Source of the DNA: Terramyces sp. JEL0728 | Lineage: Eukaryota; Chytridiomycota; Chytridiomycetes; Rhizophydiales; Terramycetaceae | Assembly (NCBI GenBank): GCA_027603945.1 | Contig: JADIIU010000095.1 | Span: 1-50,135 of the forward strand | DNA length: 50,135 nucleotides | Direction of reading: 5' to 3' | In this document: piece after piece, positions 1,084 to 49,789 of the stretch | How positions within the stretch are numbered: position 1 is the stretch's first letter | Layout: each line of letters begins with the position of its first letter | Position numbers and translations under genes: made by a program | Notes under the pieces: model-generated | Seen by the model: the letters and a program-made list of their open reading frames with translations, nothing else | Database searches by the model: none | What the model was told of the DNA's origin: nothing

Positions 1084-3340
1084 TTAAATGCGTACCTCCA
1101 ATTTATGCTTATCTATCCATTCTAGCCACTTTCTCCAGGTATGATTGCCGCTCAAAGTTTTCCTATTTCCAACTACTATCAATCCCCGCCTTGCTCTAGT
1201 ATGCATTACATTGAACCGGCGATGGTCAGTCAAAAAGCCCAGGCTATTAACGTCATTGGACCGCGTTGCAGAAAACAAAATAACTTGTTTTTCACGTCCC
1301 TAAGGTAAATAGTTGGATACCTGAAACCCATCAACAGAATTCTGTTCAATCTTATCGTACCGCTCCTTGTGCAGCATCTGCCTCAGAACTCTATTTTGGC
1401 CTGCATACGGAGATATTATTCCGATATCTTCTTGCGTTAAACCTTTGTTTAGCAATTTCTTTAGGATTTGAATAATAGTCTTTGCTTCTTCTTTGTTGGA
1501 TTTTGAAGCACTTTCTCCATTCGAATCTTCTTTATGTAAAGAGTTTACGAACGCTACTGGAATCTTTCCGTGTTTTTTATCTTCTTTCCATGGAAACCCT
1601 AAAGGCGGTTGGCGATCTTTTGGCCCAACTCCAGATTTTAACTCACCGTTGTAAAACAGTTCAGAGGAAATCTGCATAATCATTGGGTGGGATCTGTATT
1701 GAGTATCCAACATATACGGCTCGACATGTTTTGCTAAACGGCTGAATAACGACTCAGAAAACCCTTCCAAGCTAGCCCAATAATTGACGGTTGGTGGTAA
1801 TTGTTGATGGTCACCTACTAGTACAATTGACTGTGTGTTTTTAACGATTGGAATCAAAGCCATTGGCTCCGTGACTTGAGATGCTTCGTCAATAATTACG
1901 TATTTGAAGTTTAAAGCCGACAAGAGTCTACTTGACGCACTATGGACTGTTGAGCAAATCACCTGCTTTCTTCTTAAAAATCCAAGCGCTTGTCCAAAAT
2001 TTGTGTATGGATCTTGAACATTGTGGTCTAAAGAGTATTTCATGAATTCAGGTCTGATTGAAGCCGAATCGCCGCATCTTGCTATTGAAAGGCCTTCTTC
2101 TAAACAGTATTGGACAATATTATCAGTCGCTGCATTTGTTGGAGCGACTACCATGACAGACCCAGGACCATATTTTTTCACCAAACTTTTGATCAGTCTA
2201 ACCAAGGTAAAAGTCTTTCCAGTCCCTGGCGGCCCTTGAATAAGAGAAACTGGCCTATCGATCACACCCATAATGGCTTTAACCTAACATTAACCGATTT
2301 AATACCTGGGATTCGTTCAGTACTTTTGGGGGAATAGTAATCATGACTTCTTTCTTTGGGATATAGTGATCAGCCATTAAAATATCATATGCTTGTGTAC
2401 AATCTGGACCTTTTTTAGCAAATATTTCCAAAGCTTCCATACACCCGTTATATGCAGTAAGAGATTGCACTGAATGAACTTTCCAGCTGTCCAATTGCTC
2501 CGGTGTTCCATATAATTTCAGATTTAGCGTGTCAAATTGCTTCTTTTCGACAATAGCAATAATTTCCTGATTATCGCTGGTCAGCTTCAAGATATCATTA
2601 GTCCGGACATCCCCTGCTAATTTGGTTGTATATGATTTGTGATTTTTCGTTAGTTTGCCATATCCCACATAGGAATGGTGCCCAGCGACTACAGACTCTA
2701 AAATGTCCAGAGTCATTAGATTTGCCCATTTAGTAAAGTAGTCTTTAAGTTTATCGTTTGCTGTCTCAATTACAGGCGCAAGTTTTTTCAGTTCAGAAAG
2801 AAACATCCTCGACGTTTCTTCATCCTTGGCACTGGTTAATATCAACAGCAAGCTTTTGGAATATTTCGCAGTAGTGACTGGAATATTTTTGGAAACTACA
2901 TATTCGACATAGTCTGAAAACACAATAGTATCCTGTGCATCGACAACCAGATTTAAGAAATCCAGATTCTTGATTTTCTTGTTTTCTAATTGATATTTTA
3001 CAAATTCAACTCCAAGTTCAGGATGATTTCGGAATAATTCAAGCAGAGAGTCTGGAATCCTGCTGAATAAAGGGAGAATTTCCTTGAATATTTCAACTTT
3101 GTTTCCGTCCCCATCCTTGATTTTCCCAAGTCCAATATCAATCCGTTTCTTTTTCGATAACTGAGGAGCCTTTGGTTTTGATAAACTTTTCCTGATAGAG
3201 TTTGTCTTTAATGTTGGCTGGATTGGTTTGGATTTAGCAGTCCATTTATTTGGCCTCCATTGTCGCTTGGCTGTATGAAGGAATGAAGTATGCGCTGTAA
3301 GCAGCATCGGCCCGAGTGCGCCAGAAACTATTCTGAACAT
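1084..3340 (-). CDS. Upf1-like superfamily 1 helicase
   Basis: Three exons with introns at 2284-2305 (22 nt) and 1300-1320 (21 nt) give a 737-residue protein. Helicase motifs are clear: Q motif LNESQ, Walker A GPPGTGKT, Walker B as IDEASQ, motif III GDHQQLPP, motif IV region DTQYRSHP, motif V SVDGFQGREKQVI and motif VI HTRARRGLIVVG. These are diagnostic of the Upf1/IGHMBP2/Sen1 group. The first ~340 residues are poorly conserved and start with MFRIVSGALGPMLL, then many Lys/Arg residues, which could be a mitochondrial presequence. The Upf1 CH zinc domain is not seen, so this is probably not the decay factor UPF1 itself. An Hcs1/IGHMBP2-type or organellar helicase is more likely. The protein ends soon after the motif VI region, as expected. 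Confidence 0.88.
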
Positions 3341-3446
3341 TAATTTTGAAAGTTAATTTTTTTTTCAAGTGTGATTTCGAGTCAAATCATCAGCAATAAG
3401 TTGAAGATTGAGATAAAAATAATCGCAGCGTATACAGATTGATTTC

Positions 3447-5980
3447 ATGATAAAAAGGGTTAATTTTTCAGGCCAATCACAATGGCAAGCAGTGAACAAT
3501 GACGTAGGTTCTTTGCGAATGAATATACAAGCAAGAAAGGAGAAAAGTAAAGAACGAAGGGCTAGAACTAATTCATATTCATCAAAGCAAGTCCCACAGT
3601 TTGAGCCGCGCTCAGCGAACGGATTAAGCAGCCCAAGTTATAGACAGCGGTCAACATCAGATTTACGCGATGCACCCAACGTATTAAAGCCTGCATATGT
3701 TCCGCCAAAGAGGGACGACAATGCGAATAGTTCAAAATTAGAGGTAGGTCACAAAGGCTTTTTTAAATGAATATATAAACAGCAAGGAATCAAAAGATAT
3801 GCTGGCATACAAAGAAATCCCATTCGCACTGCCGCTAATTCAAACAACTTCTACGATAGACAGGATAGAAATCGCCGCAAAAGAATTAGCTGTAGCGTTT
3901 AGATAATATTAGGGACAATTGACAATAATGAGCGCGAATTTGTTTAAATCAATACCCCGAAAGGAACTGGAAACTATGGGATGGACAGGACAAGATAAAG
4001 AAACAGTTACACCAAATATCGTAAAATCCACCACTCATTTCAATAATGTATTTGCTAGTTAAATCAGCTCGCGCTCTGGGTTTCGCAAAAAGTGCTAGAA
4101 GCTTCAAAAATCCAAACTAGAATCCAAATAATCGGATATTATCTGTGGGTCGCGCAAGTACTTTCTTTTAATTCAGCATTGCCGCAATTATGACAACTAT
4201 GATTGTGTGAAAAGTATAATATCGGGGCTCCAATCAACTCCTATACATCGCTTAAGCAGAACATGGGAGGTTACATTCTTTTTAATCTAGATGGTCGGTA
4301 GACAAGAAAAAGAAATGTTTGACTGTTTAGCAGAGCTAGTTTCAATGGACAACAACAGCCAAAAGTAGGATAAATTTAAAATAGATATCGTCAAGCAATC
4401 GCAACTGCCAGAGTGCCGTTTATTCCATATTTGGGGATTACTCTGGGTGATTTGACTTATGTGTGGGAGTGTATAAAAAAAGATAAAAACAAACCAGAAC
4501 GGCAGGCGCAATATAACGAGCGGCTACTGCAGTTCAATCAATTAATAGACCAGATTGGTTACATTCAAAACAGTTGCTATTATAGGGTAGCGCTGAATCC
4601 TCTGATAATATCGTACATTGAAAAGGATTACTATAATTTCCCTCAGGAAATTAAAACAAAACAGGACCAGCAGTATGCACTAAGTTATCAATTAGAAGCA
4701 AAAAGCGAGGCTTTACAGCTGCCAAAAGATGATCTGGATTGGAAACTATTCGCAAGTTTGAAAATTAAAGGTAGAAGACCTTCCATAGAAGTCATAAATA
4801 CAGCGATAATTAATAACTTTGCAAGTAAAACATTACCTGGCAGAAACGCAGATATGGATTCGTTATTTTTAGGAAAAAAGAAGAAATCAAGACCAAAAAT
4901 AGATATTAATATATACCAAGCACCTGAACTACCATCACCGCGATTAGAATCTCAGCCTACAATGCCAAATATTGAATCTTCGGATGATGATAAAGAGCGG
5001 CCAAAGATAAAATCAAAAAAGCTGTCTGGATTGATGAAAGCCTTTGGACGGAGGAAAAAGAGACACAGCGCTAGTTCCATAGGGTCTATAAACTCTGATC
5101 GAGAGCCTTCGCCGATAGAACCCAAAACAATAGACATACCACAGATAGTAGCACCAAGCACTGCGTCCAAACACACCTCCGAGCCTCCAAAAACAGAAAG
5201 ACCCGTCTCACTCAAACATAACTTGTCATTTACAGAAAAAATTCAACAGACGCCGTGGGAAGTGGCAGGATCACTATCTCTACAAGGCTATCTGTTGAAA
5301 ATGGAAGAGTTTGACTCTGAAGGTAGCTTATTCCTTACTTAGGCAATCAAATACGCTCAAATGAATGGGAGCCATATTGGTTTGTGCTAGAAGGCTGCCA
5401 ATTATCAATATATCAAACAGAGCCAAAAAAATCCAAATCAATGAATATGCTTTCAAAATACAAATCTTCTGATGCTTTAACAGAAAAGATTGTCCGCAAA
5501 GATGCAAAGAAAAAGTACCAGTCGTTTGATCAATTAAAAGAAAGAGAATTATCCAAGCCGAATCTCTTGGAAACTCTTAAATCTGAAAGCAATGTCGATT
5601 TGCGGATAGACACGAAACCGAAATCCAGATTCAATTCCACAGTTGACTTGTTACTATCGCCCAAAGATTTCTCAATGGATAAAAAGTACTCTTCATCTAA
5701 AGAATTCTCAATGGAGAAAAAGTACTCTTCATCCATGCTAGTAATTATTTCTGACCCAGATCGATAAACCTATTGAACAGTTCACCTTGAATAATTTATG
5801 TAGGATAACACAGGTGCAGAATGAAAGGAAATATGTATTTAGAGCCATGCTGTTCCAGGAGCGGTCGTTTTTGATTTCTTGCGAGAGTAAAAGCGAGATG
5901 GACATGTGGATAGCTGCTCTACAAGTAGCTACTAATATGACCATGGTAAACTCTTCCTAACGCAGTATAAACAATCTTAG
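3447..5980 (+). CDS. RasGEF (Cdc25-type) exchange factor with C-terminal split PH domain
   Basis: Ten exons, ~776 residues. Introns: 3892-3912, 4048-4067, 4158-4176, 4270-4290, 4365-4384, 5323-5342, 5741-5759 and 5946-5965 (19-21 nt), plus a first intron near 3744-3786 whose ends are uncertain. After splicing, residues ~115-370 read as a RasGEF catalytic domain: ELAGQLTIMSANLF, PNIVKSTTHFNNL, ALWVSQKVLEA, SIISGLQSTPIHRL, KYRQAIATARVPFIPYLG and TLGDLTYVWE. A basic/Ser-rich linker follows, then a PH domain starting LQGYLLKMEEFDSEG and ending with a C-terminal helix around MDMWIAALQ. The PH domain is interrupted by a ~115-residue Lys/Ser-rich insert carrying the near-repeat KDFSMDKKYSSS/KEFSMEKKYSSS. 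RasGEF plus C-terminal PH resembles RALGPS. It likely activates a Ras/Ral-type GTPase at membranes. The start is the ATG at 3447, 106 bp from the divergent helicase start. Confidence 0.85.
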
Positions 5981-6302: not shown

Positions 6303-6375
6303 AACAGAATTGGATAATAAATGCAAAAGATATATTACTTTATGGTCTAATGAATTGATTCATTGACATTTACAA

Positions 6376-8229: not shown

Positions 8230-9832
8230 ATGCAGCACAGAGAACCGAAAGGGCTTGTGAAGCGAAGATCCTCAGAATCAGATTCAAGAAAGTCTTCAGA
8301 AGTTTGGGTTCCAGTAAAAGAAACAAACAAGATGAGAAGGGACGTTGATGAGCTGGGAAACAAGATGATCAACCAGTATGTATTTCTCAAAGAACTTGGA
8401 AGGGGAGTCCATGGAAAAGTAAAACTGTGTAAAGATATAAACGATGGCAAATATTGGGCCGTTAAAATGCTGGATAAGAATCCAAGGAGACGCTTCCAAT
8501 CCAAGCTTTCACAAGCAGCAAAACAAAGCGAAGGAGCAAAAAACACTCAGCTGGACAAGATTAAGAGGGAGGTCGCAATCCTCAAGAATTGCTCGCACCC
8601 TCACATAGTACGGCTAAAGGAAGTGATTGATGATCCTGGATACGACAAAATATACCTTGTTTTAGAATATTTACCTGGAGGAGAAGTGTTGTGGCAGGAT
8701 GATCACGATCCACCTGGACCTGCACAAACAGAAGAATCAGCAAGGAGAATCTTTAGAGATTTGGTTGCCGGCGTACAGTATTGTATTTTTGTTTTAACCC
8801 AGTGCATTACCAAGGAATAGTGCATCGAGACATCAAACCCGCAAATTTACTATGGACTGCAGATCACAAGGTTAAAATCTCTGATTTCGGAGTGTCAGTG
8901 TTTGTAGGAAAGATTAAAAAAGGCAAGAATAATTTACCAGTGGCCAACGAATTTGAATTAGGAAAGACTGCGGGCAGTCCAGCATTCTTTGCTCCTGAAT
9001 TGTGCAATATTGACGTGGAGGACGGATTAAAAAGCACCAGTAACTCATCATTGGATAGCGCTGTAGTCGAATCTACGTCTGAGGTAAAAGACAAACTGCC
9101 AAAACACCTTAGAATGATGCTTCCATTAAACAAGGCAATCCCACCTCCAGGAGCACCGATAGATATCTGGGCAATGGGGGTTACGCTGTATTGCTTGCTC
9201 TTTGGCAGAGTGCCGTTTGCTGCGCAAAGTGAAATTGAGCTGTTCCATGTAATCAACAAACAACCGTAAGTCTAAACTAACGCAGATTAATATACCCAAG
9301 AAACAGCAAAGCCTCTACCAAAGTCCAAAATTTACTCTCCAAGACTCTAGAAAAAGATCCAGAAAAGCGGGTTACAATGGAACAAATTAGGTTTCACGAA
9401 TGGACAACGTTTGATATGACTGAAGAGGATCGAGTAACTTGGCTAGATGAGACTGATCCATCTCATGCGTTTGCCGCCAGAGTGCAAGTAAGCGATGATG
9501 ATGTCAATCAAGCTCTTACAATTCAAGTAGTAGTTTTTTAATTCCAGGATAAAATCAAAGTAGGAATGAGAAAGATTTCTCATTCATTTCAAAATCTGGC
9601 TTCCAACTTTTCCAAAAGCCTTTCCCCTCCGATGCAATCTGACACAAAGAAATCCACTTCGATGCCAGTTGTAATGGGATATCTGCCCTACTCTTTGGAA
9701 AAGAAGGCAAACAAGCTGGCTACTTCTGGGCCTCCCTCACCATTAGATAATGCCGTTGGAGGAGCTGACTGGGTTAGATGGGAACCTGATAGAGAATGGT
9801 CGGATAGTTTTGAAGTCAAGAAAGATTCCTAG
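8230..9832 (+). CDS. Ser/Thr protein kinase, Ssp1/Sak1/CaMKK-like
   Basis: Four exons, 513 residues; introns 8783-8802 (20 nt), 9266-9285 (20 nt) and 9527-9547 (21 nt; an 18-nt alternative starts at 9530). Kinase motifs: glycine loop GRGVHGKV, Lys in YWAVKML, HRD as [15 protein letters not shown] as ISDFGVS, and FFAPEL for APE. The long insert between the APE region and [21 protein letters not shown], and the C-terminal block [27 protein letters not shown], match the fungal kinases upstream of SNF1/AMPK (S. pombe Ssp1, yeast Sak1/Tos3) and CaMKK. It probably phosphorylates the activation loop of an AMPK-type kinase. The ATG at 8230 is used because the longer frame has no upstream ATG. Confidence 0.88.
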
Positions 9833-9923: not shown

Positions 9924-11870
9924 ATGGGCTTACTCAAAGGATTCAACCGAGAAGTATTCCGCTTAAAATCAAGGAGAATCGCATTTGGCATATTCAAAAC
10001 CATCTTTTCCAAATACGCAATCATAGTTTATTTGCTAGGACTTTTATCACTTGGTTTATTCCCTTCGAAATTACTACACGATCATGCGAGACCGGATGAA
10101 AAAGCGCTGCTAATTGGACAAGTAACGAGATATTACAACTATGGAGATTCGTACAAATTCGTATTACCGGAAAGTATATGGGAACTTGATAATGAAAAAC
10201 GGGCGGAAGAATTGCAAGGGCAATTTGAGCTTTTGGGGTTGGACACTTCACTGCAATCGTTTCAGTTGAATAGAGAAGGGGAAGTTATCAAGGGAAAGAA
10301 TGTGCATGGGATTCTTCGAGCTCCAAGAGGCGAAGGAACAGAAACTATAGTAATTTCTGCTCCGCAATACGTCTATAATGGTGGTATTAATCGTAACGGA
10401 ATTCAGTTACTATTCAGTTTCGCTCAATTCTGTAAAAGTATTTTCCGTCTGATTTAGAATTTTCATTTTGGTCCAAGGATATCCTGTTTTTGATTACTGA
10501 CCAGGAATACGTTGGAACACTAAGTTGGCTAGAGGCTTACCATGGATTTACATCTGCAAATAATTTGGAATTTGATGGGCTAACCAATCACGCTGGTTCA
10601 ATTGTCTCAGTTTTGAATTTGGAGTTTGAAGGGACAGGAGGCTACTCTTCAGTTGCTCTTCATCCAATCGGTGTGAATGGCAGGCTATCTAATGCTGATT
10701 TGATCACTACTGCAGTTTTTAGCTTTGATTATGCTGGGATTCTGGTTGTTTTGCATGAGGACGGAACACATCCTGCCCACCAACTGGGAGAATATGGCTA
10801 TTACAATAGTGCGCTCAAGAATCTATGGTCTTTTATCAAAGTTCAGGCGCTTGGATTCCCCACTAGGAATCACGTTTTATTCCCACGCTATAATATTGAA
10901 TCAATCACATTGTCAGGCGTCAAAGGAGAGCAGGAAAACATAGATGTAACTAAGATCGGGCTGTAATACTTACTAATGATAGCGCTATTGAAACTGCATG
11001 CAGATCGCTTAACAATTTGTTGGAAAAGTTTCACCATGCTTATTGGTTCTACTTTATGCCCTCTGCATTTGACTTCATCCCTATTTCAAAGTATGTAGCT
11101 CCACTAGCTATCTTGATTGCGACTCTAATTGCCCAAAGTGCGCAAATATGGGTTACTTCTGGCGAGCTGCAGGTTGCTCCACCGAAAGGCTATGTACGGA
11201 AGCCGTGGAAATACGTACAAAGAGAGTACGGGTCTAGTTCCTTTTCCAACAGGATCAGACCTGTTTATATGCCTGTACTAACTCTGGCTTTTAGCTTCTT
11301 GTTTCCAATGGCGGTGTTTTCCATAGTAGATATTGTCCAGTTCACGGTAAAAACCCAACTGGATTCGGTAAGTTGATTTTAAACCAGGCATTATTTATGT
11401 TTGCGGCCATATTTGTTGGACAGCAAACCATGACTTGGTTTATGATTCCGCTGTTGCAGCGATTAATATGTGCAGATGCTGGAGCTTCTCGATCAACTAC
11501 AGCTGCAGTATGGCTAGTCCTGAAATCATTCATATTGGCTTTAATGGGGCTGTTTCTCTTTTCCATTGCGACAATGAATCCAAGCTTGTCTCTGCTTATA
11601 TCAATACCTGTGGTTCCTGTATTCCTTTTGATCAAGCCAACTGCCAACATTTTCTATTACGTGCAAATGTTTGTCCTGGTAGCATTTTCCCCACCAGTGC
11701 TTTTGTTTATATATGCGGTTATTCAGCAAGATCATTTAGCTGCTGCCGAGTTATTGACAAATAGCTACTTTTATTGGGAGTTGTTTGGCGGGCTGCTGCT
11801 CCCTTGGATAGCACTTGCATATTGGCCGCTTAATATGGCTGCTCAGGTAATGATTTCGATGGAACTTTAA
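9924..11870 (+). CDS. GAA1: GPI transamidase subunit GAA1/GPAA1
   Basis: Four exons, 628 residues; three introns, each 20 nt (10438-10457, 10963-10982, 11368-11387). A hydrophobic segment near residues 30-50 (IIVYLLGLLSLGLFPSK) anchors the protein. A large lumenal domain follows with GKNVHGILRAPRGEGTETIVI, FWSKDILFLITDQ and WLEAYHGF, and the C-terminus carries several hydrophobic helices. This pattern matches GAA1/GPAA1, the M28-peptidase-like subunit of the ER complex that attaches GPI anchors to proteins. It starts 91 bp after the kinase stop on the same strand. Confidence 0.9.
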
Positions 11871-17037: not shown

Positions 17038-18324
<1,287 letters not shown>

Positions 18325-18410
18325 GAAACTAAAACTACGCGTTCAGCTCATCGCGAACAAAAGGTATTACTAGGTATATATATTTTAAAAATGTTATTGT
18401 ATAAATTGCA

Positions 18411-36700: not shown

Positions 36701-37149
36701 GCTGAAGCTCCTGGATTAACTTTGTTTGTTTGATCTGGAATATTTTGCGGTCTAAATCCTTGGTATGGCAAGTTTGGCATGTTTCCACCGGCTTGTGGCT
36801 GATATTAAGATATATTTACTTGTCCTGGATATACACGTCGTGCTGCACTCGCTGGAGATGGAACTGAACTAACTGGTGAGGGGTTTTGATTTTGTTGTAT
36901 TGGATTTGGAGCAGAGTTAATTTGAGGAGAATTTTGTGCAGGAGATTGTAATCCCGGTCTTATAATTGGACGAAACTGTGCTATTGGAGTTCCAGTTGGT
37001 CTTGGTTGAAACTGCGGTCTCATCATCGGCCTGACTCCAGGATTTGCTTGTGCATCACTCTGAGGAGGCCTGATAAATGGTCTAAAGGCTGCTAATATTA
37101 TGTTTTAGTAACCTTGATTTGAATTTGGTTGTTGATTGCTGGAATCCAT
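33746..37149 (-). CDS. SEC24: COPII coat subunit SEC24
   Basis: Ten exons, 1072 residues; introns 37092-37112, 36799-36819, 36173-36192, 35918-35938, 35466-35485, 35012-35032, 34552-34573, 34354-34372 and 33992-34011 (19-22 nt). The N-terminal ~300 residues are Pro/Gln/Asn-rich and disordered. Then come the zinc finger ([15 protein letters not shown]...CNMC), the trunk domain ([59 protein letters not shown]), the beta-sandwich, the helical domain ([17 protein letters not shown]) and the gelsolin domain ([20 protein letters not shown]). SEC24 binds cargo and SEC23 at ER exit sites. The p24 cargo receptor at 44166-44817 is in the same pathway. Confidence 0.96.
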
Positions 37150-37647: not shown

Positions 37648-38911
37648 ATGGGCAAGGATTACAAATTCAATACACTCGCAATCCATGCAGGTCAAAAAGC
37701 AGGTAATAATTGATTGATACGAGACCCTACTACTGGCGCAGTAATTCCTCCAATCTCATTATCAACCACGTTCCAACAGGCAAAAGCTGGTGAACATAAA
37801 GTAATTCACATTAATCTCAGGGGTTCGATTACTCTCGTTCCGGCAATCCAACCAGACAGGCTTTTGAAGAAGCTGTCGCTGCATTAGAAGGTGGAAAGCA
37901 CGGGTTGGCATTTGCCTCTGGGTCAGTTACTACTGCTACCGTATCTTCATTATTGGCCAGCGGATCGCATCTAGTTAGCGTCAATGATGTATACGGTGGT
38001 ACCTTTAGATACTTTACCAAAGTATTGTCCACCCACGGAGTATCAGTTGATTTCGTTGATTTGTTCGATCCAAACAATCTCAGAAAAGCAATCAAGCCAA
38101 ACACTAAAGTAATTCGTGGTTAATACAAGATGGTATGGATTGAAACTCCAACAAACCCAACTTTGAAATTGGTGGATATCAAAGCAGTTGCTGATATTGT
38201 TCACTCGTATCCTGGAGTAATTTTGGTAGTAGACAACACCTTTATGTCTTCGTATTTCCAAAGACCGTTGTCGTTGGGTGCTGATATTGTCGTCCACTCT
38301 GTTACAAAGTACCTTAACGGACACTCTGATGTCGTTATGGGTATAGCAGTCACCAACAATGACGAATTAAAAGAGCGATTAGCGTTCTTGCAAAACTCTA
38401 TTGGTGGTGTCCCATCTCCATTTGACTGTTTCTTGGCCAACAGAGGATTAAAGACACTGCATTTGAGAATGCAACGTCACGGAGAAAATGCACTTGCTGT
38501 TGCTAAATTTTTGGAAGCATCTCCATTGGTTGACAGTGTTATTTATCCTGGATTGCCCTCCCATCCACAACATGAGCTTGCCAAACGTCAACAACATGGG
38601 TAATTGTTTTTAATAGTAGATTTGGCGGTATGGTATCATTCAGAGTCAAGAATGCAAATTTGGATGTTTCAAATGCATTCTTGTCCAATCTAAAAATATT
38701 TGTACTGGCTGAATCATTGGGTGGAATTGAATCTTTGGCTGAACTACCAGTAGTCATGACCCACGCATCTGTAGCACCTGCGCTCCGTCAAGAATTAGGA
38801 ATAACAGAAAGTCTAATCCGTATCTCTGTTGGTGTCGAAGATATTCATGATTTAATTGGTGACTTGAAGCAAGCATTGGAAAAGGCTTCCAAAGTTCGCG
38901 CAAAGCTTTAA
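37648..38911 (+). CDS. CYS3: Cystathionine gamma-lyase (PLP-dependent transsulfuration enzyme)
   Basis: Five exons, 393 residues; introns 37703-37723, 37801-37820, 38109-38129 and 38600-38619 (20-21 nt). The Cys/Met-metabolism PLP enzyme fold is complete: [78 protein letters not shown] and the PLP lysine in [17 protein letters not shown]. The C-terminus has HGFGGMVSF and [12 protein letters not shown]. Length and the ESLAELP-type motif favour cystathionine gamma-lyase over gamma-synthase, though they cannot be fully separated by eye. It converts cystathionine to cysteine. Confidence 0.92.
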
Positions 38912-39082: not shown

Positions 39083-40419
39083 CTAAATGGCAACATACTG
39101 GATTAGAATACCCTTACCAGATATACTTTTAAACCAAGGGTCATCGACAATATTTTGCGAAGTGAAACGCTCTTTGGGATCAGGTTCAAGCACGCTGTTG
39201 AGTAAGTTTCTACACCCGGATATCAAACTGTCGATTGGCTTAAAATTTCCTTTTCTATTGTGTAAAAACGCATTGTATCGTTCATCTTTAGGCACTGCAT
39301 GCATCCAAGGTAGCCCGGCGTATTTCATTGCGTAATAAATAACACCAGTGGCCCAGATATCTACTTCTCTTCCGTCGTACTCTGAATTTGAAAATTCTTC
39401 TGGGGCGATATAAGGCACTTGGTTAGCAAGTTATTACATGACCCGCATACTCCCTTTGATTTATGGCAAGAATTTTCAAAACATGTTCTAAAGACATCCG
39501 ACGTACCAAAATCCGTTATCTTTAATTGGCCATCCGAATCAAATAAAATATTTTCTAGCTTAATAATAAAGAACCAGGCTTTAGATCTCTATGAGCAACA
39601 CCCATAGAATGGATATAATTAACACCTCCAATTAGTTGTTTGAAGCAGCAATCAATTTCAGATTGCAAAAGAGGTTTTTCTTGGAGAACGTCGTACAATG
39701 TACCACCAGAACAATATTCCATCACTTCGCACCAAGTATGCTTGTCGTCCACTACCAAATCCAGGGTTTCAACGACATTAGCATGATGAAGCGATGAAGA
39801 TATACAAAATTCTGAAGTCATTCTCTTCATGTATTCCTTTTGATTTTCGTTCTTTCTCTTTTTCCTAAATTCCTGTTCTTAGCTACAATTACCTTTACAG
39901 CATATACTTTATTTCCGTCTTTATGTGATATGACTAATCGTACTTTACTCGTGGCTCCCTTGCCAATAATCTGGGACTGACAGTAACCGTACTTTTCACA
40001 AAGCCTCTCGTAAGGTTCGTTTCGTGATACTTTGGGTTTTGCAGTCAGCAAATCTTTAAACAAATCAATCTTTTCCTTGTTTTTACGTACTGGATCCAAT
40101 TGGAATATATCTTTGATCTCTGGCGAAATTATAGGCTCGCTCCTAGGAGACAGCTGCAGTTCGTTCATAATGAGATGCAGCAGATTCCTGTCTTTCTTCT
40201 TGGGTATCTTTGGGCTGTTCGACACTGATTTTGACTTTTCCTCCTTCTTTAAATATTTCAGCGGGTTGATATTTAAATCGCGAGATTGGATGGACTCGTA
40301 CTCTTCGATATCCAACGTTTTAAAAGTAAACGAGGTCCTGTTCTTGCAAACCTTTGAATCAAGTCCCTTGACCCAAATATCTATCGTTAGAAAAATCTAC
40401 TCGTTTGAAAAGTCGCCAT
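39083..40419 (-). CDS. Ser/Thr kinase of the Hal4/Sat4-Npr1 type
   Basis: Five exons, 418 residues; four introns, all 20 nt (40381-40400, 39873-39892, 39555-39574, 39418-39437). The first exon is 19 nt and supplies the ATG at 40419; the main frame has no ATG of its own. Kinase motifs: IIGKGATSKVRLV (glycine loop), VYAVK followed by EFRKKRKNENQKEYMKRM, HRDLKPENILFD, ITDFGTSDVFR and KGVCGSLPYIAPEEF with VDIWATGVIYYAM. The KGVCGS activation segment, poorly conserved N-terminus and EFRKKRKNE block match the fungal Hal4/Sat4/Hal5 family, which controls potassium and nutrient transporters. VPS26 starts 229 bp away in the opposite direction. Confidence 0.88.
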
Positions 40420-40648: not shown

Positions 40649-41695
40649 ATGCAAGTAATCACAAATTTTACCATAGAGCCTGTTTGGATTTGTAGGACCG
40701 AACGCAGAGATCGAAGTGGTTTTAAACGAAGAAGATCAACGAAAGCAAATTGAAACCAAGGATAAAATCAACTGCCCCCTCTATTTCGATGGAGAATCAG
40801 TAACGGGAAAAGTACAAGTGCGGCTAAAAGATGGTCGCAAGTTGGAGCATCAAGGGATAAAGATAGAATTTATTGGACAAATTCAATTGTTTTACGACCG
40901 CGGGAATCATTATGAATTTCTGTCTTTAACACAGGAACTATGTGCTCCCGGCGATTTACGACAATCCAGCACCTTTGAATTTGATTTCAAAAATGTTGAA
41001 AAGCAGTATGAATCTTATCATGGGATCAATGTAAAACTTCGGTATATTATGCGTGTGTCTGTCGGAAGACGACTCGCAGATATCTCTGCTGAAAAAGAGA
41101 TTTGGGTTCACTCATACAGAATGCCAACAGAGATCCAAGAAGCAATTAAAATGGAAGTCGGGATTGAAGAGTGTCTGCATATTGAATTCGAGTACAACAA
41201 GGCAAAGTACTATATAGTTAACAAGATATCACTTGCGGGATGTAATAGTTGGGAAAATCTACTTTTTGTTGGTAAGAATAAAGATCAAGAATATGGAATT
41301 GTCAATCATTAGAAGAGAAACTACCGGGTCGGGAAATACGCAATACAACGAAAGTGAAACTATTACCAGGTTTGAAATCATGGACGGCGCTCCCGTTAAA
41401 GGCGAAACGATACCTATTAGACTCTTCTTGTCTGGATTTGAACTTACGCCTACATTTAGGGATGTAAACAAGAAATTCTCGACCAGATATTACTTAAACC
41501 TGGTTCTAGTTGACGAAGAGAACCGCAGATACTTTAAACAGCAAGAAATTACTATTTACAGAGTACAAGGTAATTATAATTAATTGTAGATGATTCCGAA
41601 GAGTATTTTTTGTTAATATTAGATTAAAGACTATTGCTGGTGGTGCAACAGTTGCAGGGTTGAGTACATTTACGCAGGATACAAATAAACTCTGA
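40649..41695 (+). CDS. VPS26: Retromer subunit VPS26
   Basis: Five exons, 321 residues; introns 40655-40676 (22 nt), 41207-41225 (19 nt), 41570-41589 and 41603-41622 (20 nt). The first exon is 6 nt (Met-Gln) and exon 4 is 13 nt. Splicing restores the VPS26 N-terminus MQSLFGFVGPNAEIEVVLNE and the core: CPLYFDGESVTGKVQV, HQGIKIEFIGQIQLFYD, YHGINVKLRYIMRVSV, EYNKAKYHLRDVIVGKIYFL, RIKIKNMELSIIRRETTG, IPIRLFLSGFELTPT and FSTRYYLNLVLVDEENRRYF. The arrestin-like protein forms the retromer with VPS35 and VPS29, sorting receptors from endosomes to the Golgi. Confidence 0.96.
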
Positions 41696-41738: not shown

Positions 41739-43068
41739 TTATTTGAGAAGAGTAATTCCGACACTACTTAGGGCATTGGTAATCCACACTGGGTACCCGT
41801 CGTCCCCAATTGCTTTGCCAGGGTCGTTTTGGTTTTCTTCATCGTCATTTGTGCCACCAATACGCTCGTGGTAATATTTCTTCATAAACTGTTGTACAAA
41901 TTCTGGGAATGCACGCTGCTCTATTGAACTTCTAATATCTCTCATCAACCGCATTTGGTATGCGATATTGTGTATTGAAATCAAATGACATCCGACAGTT
42001 TCTTTTTGCCGCAATAAGCGGGACAAGTAGCTTCTAGTGTGTGTTTTGCAAGTATAACAACTGCAGTCCTCTTCTATTGGCAAGTGGTCCATTTCATAAA
42101 TTTGATTTTTCAATTTCATTGCTCCCCTTCTTGTTAGAGCGCTACCAAATCTAGCAGTTCTAGTTGGAAACACACAATCATACATGTCTACCCCTAATGC
42201 TGAGCAGACTACCAACTACTATTAGATTCAATTACATCTTCAGAGTACCCAACTCCCATACAATATCTAGGTTTGTCTTTGGGCAACATGTCGGTACAAG
42301 CAGAAACAATTCTCCAAAAAGTATCTTTGGATTCACCACCAGACAGCCCACCAATCTACATTAGCTGGGATTACTGCATATCCATTTGCGTCCCGCTTAA
42401 CCATTTCTTCAACACAGATCTTTCGTAGGCGTAAATCCAACCCTCCTTGGATAATAGGAAACAGGTTTTGCTCTTTTGGTTTCGCATGAGCTTTAAAGCA
42501 TCGATCTAACCATCTAATGGACCTCCACATTGCTTCTTCAACTCTTGGCCCAGTGATTAGCGAAGACACAACATCATCCAACTGCATCATGATATCTCAT
42601 TAGCAAAAAATACCTGCTCCAATTGCATTTTGAATCTCCATTGAGTGTTCAGGTGTCAACAATGTCTCTGTTACCCCATCAAACGGCGAAATGAATTTCA
42701 CTCCATCTTCAGTAATTTCAGAAAACTTCAACAACGATACCATTTGGAAACCTTCATTAGCAAAAGAAACCTCCAGAGTCTGTCAGCATCCCCCTCTTCC
42801 AATTCATGAATTTGTGCAAACCGCCTACTTGGCTCAATAAATCCTTTCCTGGCTGCAATGCGAGATGGTAAGTGTTTCCCAGTATAATGTGGCAGTCTAA
42901 TTCTTCCAACTGTTGGGTTGTTACTCCTTTCATACACCCTGAAGTTCCCACAGGCATAAACTGCGGTGTATGTACCGTATAGTGGGGCAATTTCATTAAA
43001 GACGATCTGGCTTTCGTAGTTGAGCACGTAGCTTTGATTGTAAATTTTAATGCTGATTTATCGCACAT
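41739..43068 (-). CDS. QTRT1: Queuine tRNA-ribosyltransferase catalytic subunit (TGT/QTRT1)
   Basis: Five exons, 417 residues; introns 42752-42770 (19 nt), 42596-42613 (18 nt, the shortest seen), 42356-42374 (19 nt) and 42216-42235 (20 nt). Conserved blocks: [41 protein letters not shown] (substrate Asp), [47 protein letters not shown] (nucleophile region) and the zinc site [11 protein letters not shown] ending ISIHN. Eukaryotic TGT exchanges guanine-34 for queuine in tRNAs with GUN anticodons, as a heterodimer with QTRT2. It shares a 22-bp divergent region with QNG1. Confidence 0.96.
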
Positions 43069-43090: not shown

Positions 43091-44156
43091 ATGAATGTAC
43101 AGGAGAGCGCCAAGTACATTGCTGCGAATATGAAACATGTAAAGATAAACGAGGATCAAGTTGCAATCGCAGCTGATCAGATTCTGGAGAAAATGATTGA
43201 GTTAAAGTACGATATTACGCAATGGAAGAAACACACCTTGCATCCAAAGGCACAGGATGGAAGCTCTTTGGATTGGATATTTGTGATGGATTTGCTAAAC
43301 TTTTCTTTTTGGGACGAAAGGAGTGTTAAAAAGAGATATCAAGTAACTCTAGATGGTACAACATACACTGGCTATTGGTCTCTCTGTGCAGCAATGAAGA
43401 GAAGCTTGAATGAAGGAATTCCGATTACCGCACCTTCTTTTTATGCTAATTGCACTCGAGATGAACTGCGCTATTGCTTCAGAACGGAACCAGGATGTGA
43501 TGACATGCCGCTGTTAGAAACGAGAATCGATATGCTGAACAAAGCTGGAAAGATTTTGATGGAATATGGCGGATTTACAAAAATTGTTGAAGAGTGTAAT
43601 CACTGCTGTCAAAGTTTAATCACACGAGTGATTGAATTGTTTGGAGCTTTGTTTGATGATACAGTGGAATACAAAGGGAAGCGTGTTTCATTGCATAAAA
43701 GAGTGCAAATTCTAGTAGCGGATATCTGGGGTTGCTTTGAAGGACAGAGTTACGGGTATTTCCATGATATTTCTACCATTACAATGTTTGCAGATTATAG
43801 GGTGCCACAAGTACTATTTGTTAACCTAGGGGCTATTATACTTTAATTTGCTAACTTATTCCCCCGAATTACTCTCTGTTTTAAGCCAGCATCAGTCTCA
43901 TCATGAATCTCGAGATTCCGATGTTAGGTTGAATGCACAGAATATGCTAAAGAGAGGAGAGGAGTTTGAGGTAGAAATTAGAGGCGCTTCGATTCACTGT
44001 GTTGAATTATTGGTGCAGGCTTTGAAAAAGAGGATTCCGGACAAATACCAGGTCAATGCCATCATAGTAGATTTCTATTTATGGGATATTTCAAAGGAAA
44101 TGGAGACTGAAATGAAGCACCTCCCTTACCATCGCATTAGATCAATATATTATTAA
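43091..44156 (+). CDS. QNG1: Queuosine 5'-phosphate N-glycosylase/hydrolase QNG1 (DUF2419)
   Basis: Two exons, 348 residues; one 19-nt intron at 43811-43829 joins YRVPQ to GLLYFNLLTYSPELL. The whole protein follows the DUF2419 queuosine salvage family: ESAKYIAANMKHVKINED, WKKHTLHP, DLLNFSFWDERS, YTGYWSLCAAMKRSLNEGIP, FRTEPGCDDMPLLETRIDML, HKRVQILVADIWGCFEG, TMFADYRVPQ, FEVEIRGASIHCVELL and IIVDFYLWDISKE. The enzyme frees queuine from queuosine 5'-monophosphate, so TGT can reuse it. The ATG at 43091 was chosen because it fits the family start; upstream ATGs overlap the TGT start. It ends 9 bp from the p24 stop. Confidence 0.94.
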
Positions 44157-44833: not shown

Positions 44834-46043
44834 ATGACTGTCCAAGAAGAACCAAAGCTAGAAAAGAAAGAAAAAGAGTTGGATTTTCTTCGGTTCAAGT
44901 CGCAGTTTAGATTGAAATTGGCTTGGGATAATATCATTGAAAAATACAGCAAAGATTTCGAAGGAGAAACGGATGAGATTGATTTGGAGACTGAAAAGGC
45001 AAGTATCGTTAATCTAGATTGTAATAGATCGGGGAGCGCTCCGCAGGTCTGAAGCTAAAGTCTTTGGCACGACTGATAGTAACCATATTAGCCCAGAAAA
45101 AGCTAAAGAAGCTTGGAAATCCCCTACTGTCAGAAACTTGTTTGAAGAAAAGGGCTTGATTGATTATTATGACGATGGATCATTAGATTTGGATGAAATA
45201 ATCGCCAGAAAGCAAAACGAGATTGAACATGATGGTTATAGCAGCGGGTCAGATATAGAAGACTTGCAATCGCCAATCAGATATCCAAGGTATATTGTTC
45301 CGCGCTATTTGCATCGACCAAGAATTGTTAGATATCCAACCATAGTTAATACACAACTGCCCTGGCATGGCCAATTGATGTACAAGAGAAGAATGGCGAG
45401 ACTGCGGCAATACACCGAAGGTACAAGCGATGAATATGAATCCGACAAAGACGAGCAGTTCCTAGAAGATGAACGCTATGATTCAGACGACGAAAATGCT
45501 GGCAAGGAGAATTTATCAGAGGACAATAATCGTGAAGGCGATCTGCAAGTATCAGATACCGATAGTAATAACTGTGTTGAACTGAACGAAGACAAAGACG
45601 AACTAATTGACTATCCATCGGATAAGGAAAAGGCAGACGTATTGGCAGAATTAGACCCTGACTCGCCTCATAGGTCAGCGTCAACCCCAAGACGGATCTC
45701 TAGCTATAGTGAGGGTGATAAAGAGAATTGGGATCCAAACACTGCTCATGAAAAGCCGAAAAGAGAGCACTTTGACGACCAAATCAGGGATGCAAATTGT
45801 CACAGATATCCTGCATCCATTTACCACACTCCAAAACGAATAAGAGTTATGCCTGCCCCAGTGTACTCTGCTATTCGCTACGTTTCCCCGCGAATGCATT
45901 CATATCCTACCTATAGCGCGCCGCGTTATCCTATTAGATATCAAATCCCAGTAAAGATGGATGCTGAAGAACAAAAAACCATACCGAAACCCGAAATTTC
46001 ACACTCAAAAGAAAGCGATGAAGATGAACTATTGACGTGTTGA
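44834..46043 (+). CDS. Scm3/HJURP-like protein, candidate CENP-A chaperone
   Basis: Two exons, 396 residues; a 19-nt GC-AG intron at 44999-45017. After splicing the N-terminal ~70 residues read LRFKSQFRLKLAWDNIIEKY, SKDFEGETDEIDLETEKIVI and DRGALRR, resembling the fungal Scm3 block with the pattern KYGxDF...DEIDLxTGEIVxDNGHL. The rest is acidic, Ser/Asp/Glu-rich and then Arg/Tyr/Pro-rich (RYPRYIVPRYLHRPR), with no other domain. Scm3 deposits the centromeric histone CENP-A. The match rests on one short motif recalled from the family, so the call is tentative. Confidence 0.6.
44999..45017 (+). other. GC-AG ultrashort intron in the Scm3-like gene
   Basis: Sequence GCAAGTATCGTTAATCTAG, 19 nt. 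Removal changes a frame ending soon after into DLETEKIVIDRGALRR and a further ~330 residues. It is the second GCAAG-type donor in the window. Confidence 0.85.
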
Positions 46044-46112
46044 AACTAATTTATAAATACGTTTTCTAATATAATAAATTCAAATTTGATTCCGAATGAG
46101 GTACTATTATAT

Positions 46113-46438
46113 TTATTTTGGTTTGGAGACTTGTTTTAGTTCATATAATTGCCCTGATATTAAAAATATTTACCCAGCTGTTCTGGAGACAACGAGTCCA
46201 ATTCCTCTTTACTTAGCTTTATACCAGTAACTTTGCTGTGTAATTTTACCTGTTCTTCTAGTGCGTCTCTATATGCAGTCCAGCCCTGGATAAACCCAGG
46301 AACGTACTGCTCCTTAGCCGTTCTGTGTAATCTGAATTCCTCTTTTACATATCTGTTTCCAATCAAGCGCAAATCTGGCGGTAGTTGTCTATGCAACCGA
46401 CGGATATTTTTATATAGGTCGAGGATCTGTTTCTGCAT
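46113..46438 (-). CDS. SDHAF3: Succinate dehydrogenase assembly factor SDHAF3/Acn9
   Basis: Two exons, 101 residues; a 20-nt intron at 46154-46173 changes the end from GKYF to GQLYELKQVSKPK, as expected for the family. The LYR-type protein shows LYKNIRRLHRQLPPDLRLIG (LYK in place of LYR), NRYVKEEFRLHR, FIQGWTAYRDALEEQ and LSPEQLGQLYEL. SDHAF3 acts in the mitochondrial matrix, helping mature the iron-sulfur subunit of complex II. Its start codon is 8 bp from the GCN5 start. Confidence 0.93.
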
Positions 46439-46446
46439 CCTGAAAA
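46439..46446. promoter_or_regulatory. 8-bp divergent spacer between SDHAF3 and GCN5 start codons
   Basis: The closest divergent pair in the window. If GCN5 starts at its second ATG (46471) the gap is 32 bp. Either way, both promoters must lie within the opposite gene. Confidence 0.65.
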
Positions 46447-47670
46447 ATGGTAGAGAAAAGAAATCACGAACAAATGGAGAATAGCGACGACAGCCAGACA
46501 GAAGAAGTTCAGGATGTCGAAGTAAAGCAGGAAATTACTGAAGCATTTCCTCCAAAGATAACCAAGGCGATTATTGAAGAGAACGACGGAAAAGTCGAAT
46601 TTTGTGTGGTTTTAAACGATTCGACTGATCAATCAATGATTTTGCTGTCGGGATTGCGCTCCATATTTCAAAAACAGCTACCCAATATGCCTAAAGAGTA
46701 CATTGCTCGTTTGGTGTTTGATAAATCGCACTGTGCTATGGCTGTAGTTCGCAGGCCTTACACAGTGCTAGGAGGGATTACTTACAAGCCGTTTATCAAT
46801 GGCGGGTTTGCTGAAATTGTGTTCTGCGCCATAGATACCACTTGCCAGGTTCAGGGTTATGGATCAAGGTTGATGAGCCATGTTAAAGACCATGTTAAGG
46901 TAGCTCATGGAACAAAGCATTTCCTAACTTATGCAGATAACTATGCTATCGGATATTTCAAAAAACAGGGATTCACGACAGATATTACGCTGGAAAAGTC
47001 GTTGTGGATGGGGTATATCAAGGATTACGAAGGAGGAACTATTATGCAGGTAGTTGGTCTTAATCTGTAGTGCACCATGTTGGACAAGGTGAAATATCTG
47101 GATGCAGTAAACATTATGGCGGCACAGCGTTGGGTAAGCTGAATTAACTCTAGGCTGTTTTCAAAAAGATTAGAGATCACACAATGGCCCATATAGTACA
47201 CAAGAATAATTTATTTGATAATGGAGAAGAAAGCTTGGATCCAAGCAAGATACCTGGTCTAAGAGAAGCAGGCTGGATGCCAAATGCAAGTCATCTATCA
47301 TATAGACCAACCCCTAGGCAAAGAAGTCCGCTGTACATATTTATGAAAAAACTGCTGGATGAACTACATGAAAATACACATTCATGGCCATTTGTTGAAC
47401 CTGTTGCTGGCGTTCCTGACTATTACGATATCATAAAGAGCCCAATGGACCTGCGAACGTTGAATGATAATATTGAAGCAAACAAATATAATACACTGGA
47501 CGAATTCACTGCAGATGTGAACCTTATCTGGAATAACTGCAGGACCTATAATCAAGATGGATCCACATATGTAAAATGGTATGCGCATTATTAATTATAG
47601 CGCAAATAAGTTGGAAAAATGGTTCAAAGAGAGGTTCAAAATATTAAGAATTGAAATGGGTGTTCAATAA
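46447..47670 (+). CDS. GCN5: Histone acetyltransferase GCN5
   Basis: Four exons, 386 residues; introns 47050-47070 (21 nt), 47134-47153 (20 nt) and 47579-47600 (22 nt). The GNAT domain contains [29 protein letters not shown] with the catalytic Glu, the acetyl-CoA loop [10 protein letters not shown], and [17 protein letters not shown]. The linker carries [10 protein letters not shown], and the C-terminus is a bromodomain ([31 protein letters not shown], the conserved Asn in [25 protein letters not shown]). GCN5 acetylates histone H3 within SAGA/ADA. The start at 46447 gives a short acidic N-terminus; a second ATG at 46471 is possible. It converges on chitin synthase, 18 bp between stops. Confidence 0.96.
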
Positions 47671-47688
47671 ATGCATAGATCAAGTATA

Positions 47689-49789
47689 TTATCTGTTCCA
47701 GTCCGTGAATAGCCTTTCTGAGACGGATGCAATTTGTGGTAAATCGTAAGGATTATCTTCATCGTCAGAGCTAGAGTTGTTTCGCCCAAGCGAGGATGGC
47801 CTGGACGGTCTATAAGAATTGAACGATGACTGACTTTTGTTTACCAAGCTTATTCTAGATCGTGATCTGCGATCTCCTAAACTACTTTCATATCCGCTTT
47901 CGTCAGAGTCTCTGGATTCCTTTGAGTACATTGATTCTGTAAACCCAGGAGATCCTGAAGAGTCGTAGTCAATCAAGTCCAGTAAAAAGTCACTATTTCC
48001 TTCCAGCTGCAACTCTAAAAGTGTGATGGGTCTACTCAGGTCAATGCGCTGCACTGGTTCTTCTTGGTCTGTACGCGGACCTCCCCATGTTCTTACATTC
48101 CAAGTTAGTGTAGAGTATAAATTAATCAGCAAAAATATCCACGGGATGAATAATACAAGCACAGGGTACATCCAAAATATCTTGAATCTTCTCGTGACTA
48201 TGGCGAAAAAGAATGTCAGTATCCAACTGGCTAAATATGGAACCCAGAGCACTAGCGTCTGCGCTGTTGTGAATGAAACCCCAACGATGTATGAAAATAG
48301 AACCAAATACATTAAAAACCCAGTGGACTGAGATGAAAATAGTAGCAGCTTGTAGATGATTAGAAAGGGAACTCTGAACCACAATCTGACGTCACATAGG
48401 AAATACACTTCATTTGAGAGTGCACCCAGCAACCATCTTCGTCTTTGTTTCAGGAACGAAATCCAATTTCCTGGTGCTTCAGTTTTAGCCCTTGCTGATA
48501 AACAAAATCCAATAGAGTAACTTTTAGATTGCTCCATCAGGATATGTGTCAAATATCGATCTTCCCCCAAGTGATACCTATGAAAATCAAATATCTTTTC
48601 TGTGTTTAGATCTGAAAAGTATAGTTTCGATGCTTGTGCCAATTCCTTCAATCTGACGATAGTTAAAGCGCCGGGTAAGCAGGTTACACCGCCAAGTCCG
48701 GCTTCCAGCGCTCTTGAAAATATTTGCCCCAGCACATACTCTGTGTCTTGAAAAAACCAATATGGATTAAACCCTCGTGATGAAATTGCAGAGATAAATC
48801 CAGTCATTCCCACCATTTCCCTGTTGTCCTCCATTGCTCGTAGAAATTCCAACATACAGTCCCTATGTAAAATGATGTCGGAATCAATAAATAATACAAA
48901 TGTTCCCTTTTCTCTTCCTTCGTAAGCATCGATAATTTGCTCAAATGTCGCTGCTTGGGTATTTCGTTTCCCTCCATGGGGAAATCTGTTGACTATGAAA
49001 TGTATTCGTTGATATATAACCAACACTCTTTCTTTGTAAGCATTCTTTGGCAATTCCTCTCCTCCTGCCAAATATCTCATCAAGTGAAGATACAGCTCGC
49101 TGACTTTGTCCGAATCGAATGACAGATACACTACCATCTTGTTCGCAGGATAAACCGACTGCACTATAGATTCTACTGCGTTGATAAGTGCATCTTTATC
49201 CTCATTGTAGATCGGCATGACGATAATCTAAATTATTTCCATTTACCATATTCGCGATTTTCTTGTTCCTCATCCTCTTTTTTACCCTTTTCTTTGCTTT
49301 GTTGATTACCTTGCTGCTCAACCTGCCTGAATTTCTCCACATCCTGTATTTGATTGACCAGCCAATGGCAAATAATAATGGGAGTACAAGTAAAACCACA
49401 TACAATATTAGCAAGATTGCGAACGAGGTCTTGGTTAGTTTCAACTTACTGAATAAATAAAGTTTGGAAGTATTGGCACTCCGCTGACTGGAATAAACAT
49501 CATGAATAACGGGATATAAGCCAAACGGATTATGCTGAAAACAAGGGCGATGACCACAGGCCCAATTACTTTCTTGCCAAGCGACAGTGCTAATCCATGG
49601 TATAAATTAATTGTGTACACTCCAAAATCAATAATTCCACAAACTACTAGCAACAATTGAATCCCTGCAATTACTGAATTATCTTTCCATAGCGCCGTAC
49701 TGGGATTGTTTGCCTATGTTAGTAATTCGTACGAAATCGGTTGCATTGAATATGGACGAAAAGAAACCGCTGTTGCTGGTTTGGTTCAT
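47689..49789 (-). CDS. Chitin synthase (GT2 family)
   Basis: Four exons, 680 residues; introns 49714-49732 (19 nt), 49430-49449 (20 nt) and 49228-49246 (19 nt). The N-terminal ~170 residues have three or four membrane helices (LLLVVCGIIDFGVYTI, VVIALVFSIIRLAYIPLFMM, AILLILYVVLLVLPLLFAIG). The catalytic domain carries VMPIYNEDKDAL, HGGKRNTQ, FVLFIDSDIIL, PGALTIVRL, GEDRYLTHIL and QRRRW, followed by more helices and a Ser-rich tail with likely phosphorylation sites. It makes cell-wall chitin from UDP-GlcNAc at the plasma membrane. It is short and lacks a myosin head or cytochrome b5 domain, suggesting a division-2 class without those modules. Confidence 0.94.

Follow-up and report, generated by a model that had tools for sequence, protein, structure and literature searches.

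Introns of 19–22 nucleotides, very probably spliceosomal and of U2 type, in the nuclear genome of the chytrid fungus Terramyces sp. JEL0728

How little room does a largely ordinary spliceosome need between the landmarks of an intron? This question is raised by a contig of Terramyces sp. JEL0728, which belongs to the Rhizophydiales, an order of chytrid fungi, and to a genus of saprobic soil chytrids: an initial annotation, made from the letters of the contig alone, claimed that nearly all introns in it are 18–23 nucleotides (nt) long, genuinely spliceosomal and numerous in what is otherwise a complete set of nuclear genes. The sequence studied, hereafter the window, is the whole of this contig (C95; 50,135 bases), and the assembly to which it belongs comprises 15,016,339 bases in 231 contigs. 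To our knowledge, introns as short as these had been ascribed only to relict nuclei and some ciliates, apart from a handful of introns in other organisms. The short segments have common signals at a common spacing, and their removal restores conserved proteins; very probably, they are U2-type spliceosomal introns of the Terramyces nuclear genome, for which 19–22 nt is the standard size and in which the geometry of splicing is near minimal. A 15-Mb chytrid assembly with genes for TBP, condensin, Sec24 and chitin synthase is not a relict endosymbiont nucleus.

Introns were called with a purpose-written, two-strand gene finder based on coding statistics, which tends to overlook weak genes as well as short exons at 5′ ends. 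The sample of 250 kb consisted of the window and 20 stretches of 10 kb, one from each of 20 other contigs. In pass 1, any GT...AG gap of 10–120 nt was accepted at a single flat cost, with neither a splice motif nor a length preference. This motif-free pass used 147 GT-AG gaps, 74 of them 19–23 nt long, while seven control dinucleotide pairs under the same settings gave 5–14 gaps of that length among 120–150; the length peak is specific to GT-AG ends and absent with the seven other pairs. Only 11 of the 73 motif-free introns of 19–22 nt lie in the window, so that the motif-free test rests mainly on the remaining 200 kb and has little power when restricted to the window. In pass 2, which used donor and branch motifs learned from pass 1 and a length cost flat over 10–150 nt, 192 of 227 introns were 17–24 nt long, and the remaining 35 were longer and scattered in length, each longer length being seen at most twice. 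When a learned length preference was added (pass 3), 234 of 244 introns, and 65 of 69 within the window, were of 17–24 nt. In neither the motif-free nor the flat-prior pass is there an excess of 15–16-nt lengths in the 250 kb.

Pass 4, in which lengths were confined to 16–30 nt and which is therefore no test of length, gave 70 window introns in 24 of 30 gene models: 19 introns of 19 nt, 34 of 20, 10 of 21, five of 22, and one each of 23 and 25. Three introns of 23, 21 and 19 nt were placed by hand, for a window total of 73. The initial annotation had counted about 93 introns in the window; its length profile agrees with the present one, and its total is the higher of the two, the finder having the weaknesses named above. 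Its single 18-nt intron was not recovered in the window, one 18-nt case being found elsewhere among 247 introns. The broader claim, that nearly all introns are 18–23 nt long and abundant, holds both in the window and in the 200 kb sampled elsewhere.

The lengths are explained by two nearly fixed distances. In a motif-trained set of 234 introns, the branch adenosine occupies position 14 in 116 and position 15 in 95, together 211, and position 16 in a further 21; it is followed by 5 nt in 115 and by 6 nt in 95. Intron length is the sum of the two distances, 19 being 14 + 5, 20 being 14 + 6 or 15 + 5, and 21 being 15 + 6. The branch motif is YTAAY in 158 of the 234, and the 3′ end is YAG. The donor is GTA followed by a weak A-T-T, with A at +4 in 58 percent and G at +5 in only 15 percent, so that +5G has mostly been lost. 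Neither the fixed branch position nor this loss had been noticed in the initial annotation, which likewise did not see the organism, the errors in deposited models of relatives or the state of the branching factors. Because the geometry of a motif-trained set is partly built in, the motif-free introns were examined separately: in 61 of 73, a T-R-A-Y ends 1–4 nt before the terminal AG, a feature of 19 among the 58 gaps that exceed 24 nt; its A stands at position 14, 15 or 16 in 29, 25 and 8 introns, respectively, nine introns having none.

The splice signals total about 17.8 bits. A threshold on signal and spacing that retains 117 of the 234 introns gives 146 matches in 250 kb against 10 in the reversed sequence, and one that retains 211 gives 330 against 117, which indicates that fixed-spacing signals are close to sufficient, not fully so. 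For the whole assembly, a short pattern, GTAA-N6..8-YTAAY-N1..2-YAG with a span of 19–22 nt, was counted. The assembly contains this pattern 4,709 times and its reverse 274 times, whereas identical signals spaced at 29–59 nt occur 1,843 times against 2,533 reversed, showing no excess. This count extends the short-intron reading from the window to the genome, where the initial annotation had proposed a survey of intron lengths. Since the short pattern captures 67 of the 234 introns, scaling suggests a genome total of about 15,500 introns, and intron density suggests about 14,000, totals that may be too high if parts of the assembly are present twice. For Cwc25, two contigs give matches of equal score (C30:109075 and C33:23034), perhaps uncollapsed haplotypes or a duplication.

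In the 250 kb, lengths that are multiples of three look depleted relative to an expectation derived from independent branch and tail distances (18 nt, 1 against 6.9 expected; 21 nt, 41 against 57.6). Detection bias could account for this; the alternative is selection against frame-preserving introns. In Paramecium, selection is said to act against stopless introns of such lengths.

If these segments are introns, their removal should leave continuous proteins, as the initial annotation had maintained. Indeed, all 17 introns that fall inside alignments, among 23 in five conserved genes, restore the protein; the other six fall outside the alignments. The largest contribution comes from Sec24, whose eight introns lie on the minus strand. 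Six are in the conserved domain (33992..34011, 20 nt; 34354..34372, 19; 34552..34573, 22; 35012..35032, 21; 35466..35485, 20; 35918..35938, 21), and their junctions are read through against 11 chytrid relatives, except that Kappamyces has one additional residue at 35466..35485 and Boothiomyces seven at 35012..35032. The other two are in the variable N-terminus, outside the alignment: at 36173..36192 (20 nt) the deposited protein is spliced likewise, and 36799..36819 (21 nt), upstream of the deposited start, comes from the gene model. The deposited Sec24 of Terramyces sp. JEL0728 is identical to the spliced model from residue 75 onward. In a search with the spliced Sec24, this protein matches at 100 percent over the region searched, and the closest relatives are those of Boothiomyces macroporosus (94 percent), Kappamyces (69 percent) and Gorgonomyces (64 percent).

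TBP, also on the minus strand, has three introns (18603..18625, 23 nt; 18887..18907, 21; 18996..19018, 23; the latter two placed by hand), all inside the alignment and gap-free against solved TBPs. The six introns of TTLL1 on the same strand are all of 19 nt. Five of them are inside the alignment with chytrid TTLL1 and are read through: 17501..17519, 17891..17909, 17964..17982, 18114..18132, and 18281..18299, the last placed by hand after codon 8 with a GTT donor. The sixth, 17147..17165 in the variable C-terminus, lies outside the alignment and is taken from the gene model. In GCN5 (plus strand), introns of 21 nt (47050..47070) and 20 nt (47134..47153) flank an exon of 63 nt, and both junctions are gap-free against solved GCN5. 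Vps26 (plus strand) has four introns, of which 41207..41225 (19 nt) is inside the alignment and gap-free against solved Vps26; the other three, from the gene model, are 40655..40676 (22 nt, after codon 2, outside the alignment), 41570..41589 (20 nt, one residue beyond the alignment end) and 41603..41622 (20 nt, preceded by a 13-nt exon). All junction mismatches come from single relatives, namely Kappamyces Sec24, Boothiomyces Sec24 and two Boothiomyces TTLL1 models, in which an exon is missing and TBP is fused on.

Family searches agree with these alignments. On another contig, the large subunit of U2AF scores 252 bits unspliced and 334 bits after removal of four introns of 19–20 nt, the cut-off being 310.3. 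In the window, five introns on the plus strand (12268..12287, 12457..12476, 12863..12882 and 13000..13019 of 20 nt; 12683..12704 of 22 nt) are removed from an FCP1-like phosphatase gene whose spliced protein matches Pfam NIF, and four on the minus strand (14281..14299 and 14451..14469 of 19 nt; 15427..15447 of 21 nt; 15697..15718 of 22 nt, found also by the motif-free pass) from the gene for condensin subunit 2, whose spliced protein matches Pfam Cnd2 along 35–655. Likewise on the minus strand, spliced proteins match CH_2 in a gene of flagellar type (30641..30659, 30901..30919 and 30936..30954 of 19 nt; 30763..30782 of 20 nt) and TGT in a tRNA-guanine transglycosylase gene (42216..42235, 20 nt; 42356..42374, 19 nt, the latter also in the motif-free pass). 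The chitin synthase reported by the initial annotation is present as a gene at 47689–49789, with introns 49228..49246 (19 nt), 49430..49449 (20 nt) and 49714..49732 (19 nt) on the minus strand and a spliced protein that matches PF03142.

Deposited proteins of related chytrids, from which the spread within the clade is judged, have irregularities at the same places. The Sec24 deposited for Boothiomyces macroporosus carries the extra residues NNCLILG exactly at the position of the 21-nt Terramyces intron 35012..35032. Read back, they fit a 21-nt GT...TAG stretch with a possible TTAAT at the usual place, so that they are probably a retained intron. In Terramyces TTLL1, a 54-nt exon upstream of 17891..17909 lies between two introns; the 18 residues that it encodes are missing from the TTLL1 deposited for Boothiomyces sp. 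JEL0866, and this model is also joined to TBP, with an intron boundary as the point of fusion. Common intron positions and the trouble in annotation point to short introns in Boothiomyces too; the short introns would then account for intron retention, exon skipping and gene fusion in the deposited models of the group. For other chytrids, introns are counted or mentioned in the accessible parts of PMC5364385 and PMC6572847, and no lengths are given. In the window, TBP and TTLL1 stand head to tail about 90 nt apart (17038–19098), and it is these two that are fused in deposited Boothiomyces models.

What machine would remove such introns? In a family search, U2 snRNA is found with 140 bits and has the usual branch-pairing stretch GTAGTA, and the U2AF large subunit is encoded, its spliced protein being above the family cut-off. 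A gene for a METTL16-type methyltransferase, a family that also includes bacterial enzymes, is present as well. It fits with the +4A preference of the donors, since such a preference is linked to METTL16 in Saccharomycotina in the part of the source available (PMC10581693).

From these sequence features, it would be the spliceosome that removes the segments in vivo. Most likely, an ordinary spliceosome recognises GTA, the branch motif and YAG at a fixed distance, and the short spacing would itself act as a signal, making up for the weakness of the 5′ splice site. The helix with U1/U6 covers about positions 1–6 of an intron and that with U2 about positions 9–15; in the Terramyces introns, the 5′ splice-site helix and the branch helix would nearly abut, with about 2 nt between them, and U1 might have to hand over or depart before the branch helix docks. 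About 5 nt would be left from the branch to the 3′ end, and the lariat loop would be of 14–15 nt, compared with 10 in Stentor. The landmarks thus seem to leave the splicing machine hardly any room between them, and an altered N-terminus of the branching factor Isy1 may help the branch to fit.

Two branching factors, Cwc25 and Isy1, were examined, both of which are reported as altered in the ciliate Stentor in the accessible text of PMC9505925. Cwc25 of Terramyces retains its N-terminal plug, MGGGDLNLKKSWHP, its alignment with the human protein, CWC25, starting at residue 1. Isy1, on the other hand, is without the N-terminal MARNxEKA...RF stretch, and its alignment to human ISY1 begins only at residue 37. 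Only 32 nt separate the start of Isy1 from that of a divergent APG12 gene, so that an unseen 5′ exon would have little space. Among 120 listed of 371 homologues, 73 have the canonical pattern, 35 start at an inner methionine just before RF/RW, and 12 fit neither, counts that depend on the uncertain start sites of deposited gene models. Of these 12, two start, judged by eye, with something resembling the motif, and another five have their first residue beyond the region. The last five are divergent; the divergent N-termini among the matches listed belong to Boothiomyces, Globomyces, Kappamyces, Gorgonomyces and one environmental protein.

There is an even chance that the change in Isy1 is unrelated drift in an otherwise ordinary spliceosome. 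Such drift is what the intact plug of Cwc25 and the normal appearance of U2 and U2AF would lead one to expect, and the branching factors examined number only two. Nevertheless, the same part of Isy1 is described as non-conserved in Stentor, whose introns are 15–16 nt (PMC9505925, as far as its accessible text goes), and among the 120 listed of 371 homologues the N-terminal loss is limited to a group of related chytrids. With slightly less than even confidence, it may be proposed that in a Rhizophydiales clade of Terramyces, Boothiomyces and probably Globomyces, Kappamyces and Gorgonomyces nearly all introns have shrunk to a fixed 14–15 + 5–6 nt, that spacing has replaced +5G as a splice signal, and that the spliceosome has co-evolved by a remodelling of the Isy1 N-terminus, in parallel to the unrelated ciliate Stentor.

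Several points weigh against the view that U2-type introns of 19–22 nt are the standard here. A family search of the assembly did not find U1, no match being no proof of absence, and for U6 it gave only two matches, neither of which reached the cut-off or was convincing, one lying within a coding region; two U6 core patterns were also unsuccessful in the assembly. By all features tested except U1 and U6, the introns are of U2 type as far as sequence can tell. Passes 2–4 are motif-trained, which makes their geometry counts partly circular, and the genome-wide patterns cover GTAA donors only, at spans of 19–22 and 29–59 nt. Both the handover of U1 and the role of Isy1 are drawn by analogy. Finally, the finder proposes six gaps of 38–123 nt outside the window, and Isy1 itself has an intron of 62 nt (L045 1441–1502, minus strand) with a GTATGT donor, which fits the frame and the relatives.

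The last two points, the 35 of 227 introns longer than 24 nt under the flat length prior and the limits of the genome-wide count would fit a mixed population, in which the short introns are real and a sizeable class of normal length is missed by a finder that favours short ones. This is unlikely, though it deserves more weight than the explanations considered below, since the signals have no excess at 29–59 nt and no longer length recurs more than twice in the flat-prior pass. Furthermore, three of the four window gaps longer than 24 nt in pass 3 dissolve into short introns: one into 23 nt in TBP, one into 19 nt at the start of TTLL1, and one into 21 + 20 nt around the 63-nt exon of GCN5. The introns of 141, 68 and 104 nt that the finder had drawn in the window were rejected for this reason. 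The fourth gap is 45021–45111, where pass 4 instead gives a doubtful intron of 25 nt at 45003..45027 (plus strand). Longer introns are rare but not absent, and their donor may be stronger.

That the segments are bypassed in translation or eliminated from DNA as in ciliates, rather than spliced, is very improbable. Elements of this kind are also known to interrupt reading frames with short AT-rich inserts; they would, however, account neither for the dependence on GT-AG ends nor for a branch motif complementary to U2 at fixed spacing. The genome encodes U2 snRNA and U2AF, and the introns spread over phases 0, 1 and 2 (93, 64 and 53 of 234, the other 24 having no assigned phase), features that accord with splicing rather than bypass. 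Errors of assembly or sequencing, which the initial annotation had named as grounds for rejecting its claim, can practically be discarded as a source of frameshifts resembling introns, because, even in a draft of 231 contigs with a few unsettled gene models, errors would share neither GT-AG ends, branch motif nor spacing, would not leave 17 of 17 junctions in frame, and would not recur thousands of times above the reversed pattern.

With spliceosomal introns of 19–22 nt as the preferred reading, the closest known counterparts in size are the introns of chlorarachniophyte nucleomorphs (Bigelowiella, Lotharella, Amorphochlora), given in the available portion of PMC4494063 as 18–23 nt long with GT-AG ends and numbering 793–1,028. 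Size and ends match those of Terramyces. A nucleomorph, however, is the relict nucleus of an endosymbiont, whereas Terramyces has an estimated 14,000–15,500 introns in a 15-Mb fungal nuclear genome. For the introns of Bigelowiella natans and Paramecium, the part of PMC2483917 at hand reports no branch-point signature, in contrast to the strong, position-locked branch motif of Terramyces. The rare longer introns of nucleomorphs look, in the text available, like two fused short ones, and the tandem introns of Terramyces may be likewise. Four adjacent pairs are separated by exons of 0, 6, 13 and 16 nt (L018 4717–4758; L020 7986–8034; window 41570–41622 and 30901–30954, respectively), and the pair with the 0-nt exon may be a fused intron. 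At the 5′ end of Isy1 (L045 1963–2027, minus strand), the finder proposes three motif-perfect introns of 20, 20 and 21 nt with exons of 1 and 3 nt between them; alternatively, there is a single fused intron of about 69 nt, as implied by the deposited Boothiomyces protein.

In mechanism, Stentor coeruleus is the nearest case. Its introns are 15–16 nt long with the branch adenosine at the 10th or 11th nucleotide, and in the accessible text it resembles Terramyces in genome-wide ultrashort introns, a nearly fixed distance from the 5′ end to the branch, a GTAATT-like AT-rich donor and a divergent Isy1 N-terminus (PMC9505925). The Terramyces introns are 4–5 nt longer and their branch adenosine, at 14–15, is 4–5 nt further in; on the same partial text, the YTAAY motif clear in Terramyces is weak in Stentor, and the MGGG plug kept by Terramyces Cwc25 is said to be lacking. 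Paramecium also has short introns throughout its nuclear genome with donors weak beyond GTA, but these are of about 25 nt (PMC5014332, in the part available) and, unlike the Terramyces introns with their strong motif, are reported to have no branch signature (PMC2483917). In Trichomonas vaginalis, the branch site is likewise at a fixed distance from the 3′ end; the 63 introns, the shortest of 23–25 nt, have highly conserved extended motifs, whereas Terramyces has thousands with a weak donor (PMC12316389, partial text). The same source, of 2025, counts 23 nt among the shortest known and names, in the part available, only Stentor and Bigelowiella as comparable.

Terramyces would be a fungus whose usual intron is ultrashort, each one having a branch point that can be read from the sequence, and chytrids are closer to yeast than ciliates are. 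The genome may thus offer a natural measure of the smallest distance between 5′ splice site and branch that a largely ordinary U2-type spliceosome tolerates. It also permits a test of whether, as has been hypothesised, a tight lariat forces branching factors to be altered lest they collide with it; here Isy1 has changed and Cwc25 has not. No published report of short introns in Terramyces was found by a search to which subscription literature, including a likely genome paper, was mostly closed.

The remaining introns of the window are known from gene models, and the names of kinase, transporter, synthetase and the like are what the genes are presumed to encode. On the plus strand, a presumed protein kinase gene (8230–9832) has introns at 8783..8802, 9266..9285 (20 nt each) and 9527..9547 (21 nt), and the neighbouring gene at 9924–11870 has three of 20 nt at 10438..10457, 10963..10982 and 11368..11387, the second found also by the motif-free pass. 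A weak model with a score of only 1.5 and no Pfam match holds 16327..16346 (20 nt), 16516..16534 and 16659..16677 (19 nt each). A gene at 37648–38911 has four, 37703..37723 and 38109..38129 (21 nt each, the latter also motif-free) and 37801..37820 and 38600..38619 (20 nt each). Single introns on this strand are 4365..4384, 5323..5342 and 33440..33459 of 20 nt, 32579..32599 of 21 nt and 43811..43829 of 19 nt.

On the minus strand, a presumably helicase-like gene (1300–3340) has an intron of 22 nt at 2284..2305, and a putative transporter gene (21238–23717) has 21673..21693 (21 nt) and 22476..22495 (20 nt). The presumed aminoacyl-tRNA synthetase gene contains 24732..24751, 26187..26206 and 26468..26487 (20 nt each, the first and third also in the motif-free pass) and, at its 5′ end, 27183..27201 (19 nt). 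Another gene, taken to be kinase-like, has four of 20 nt at 39418..39437, 39555..39574 (with a GTT donor), 39873..39892 and 40381..40400, and single introns of 20 nt are found at 31540..31559 and 46154..46173. The window contains no tRNA and no Rfam family at the gathering threshold. Two Thr/Pro/Gln-rich proteins, probably secreted, are encoded at 6376–7578 and 19406–19873 and have, by eye, a common N-terminal stretch, LPGL.VP...I.L; a third repeat-rich protein is found at 1–578.

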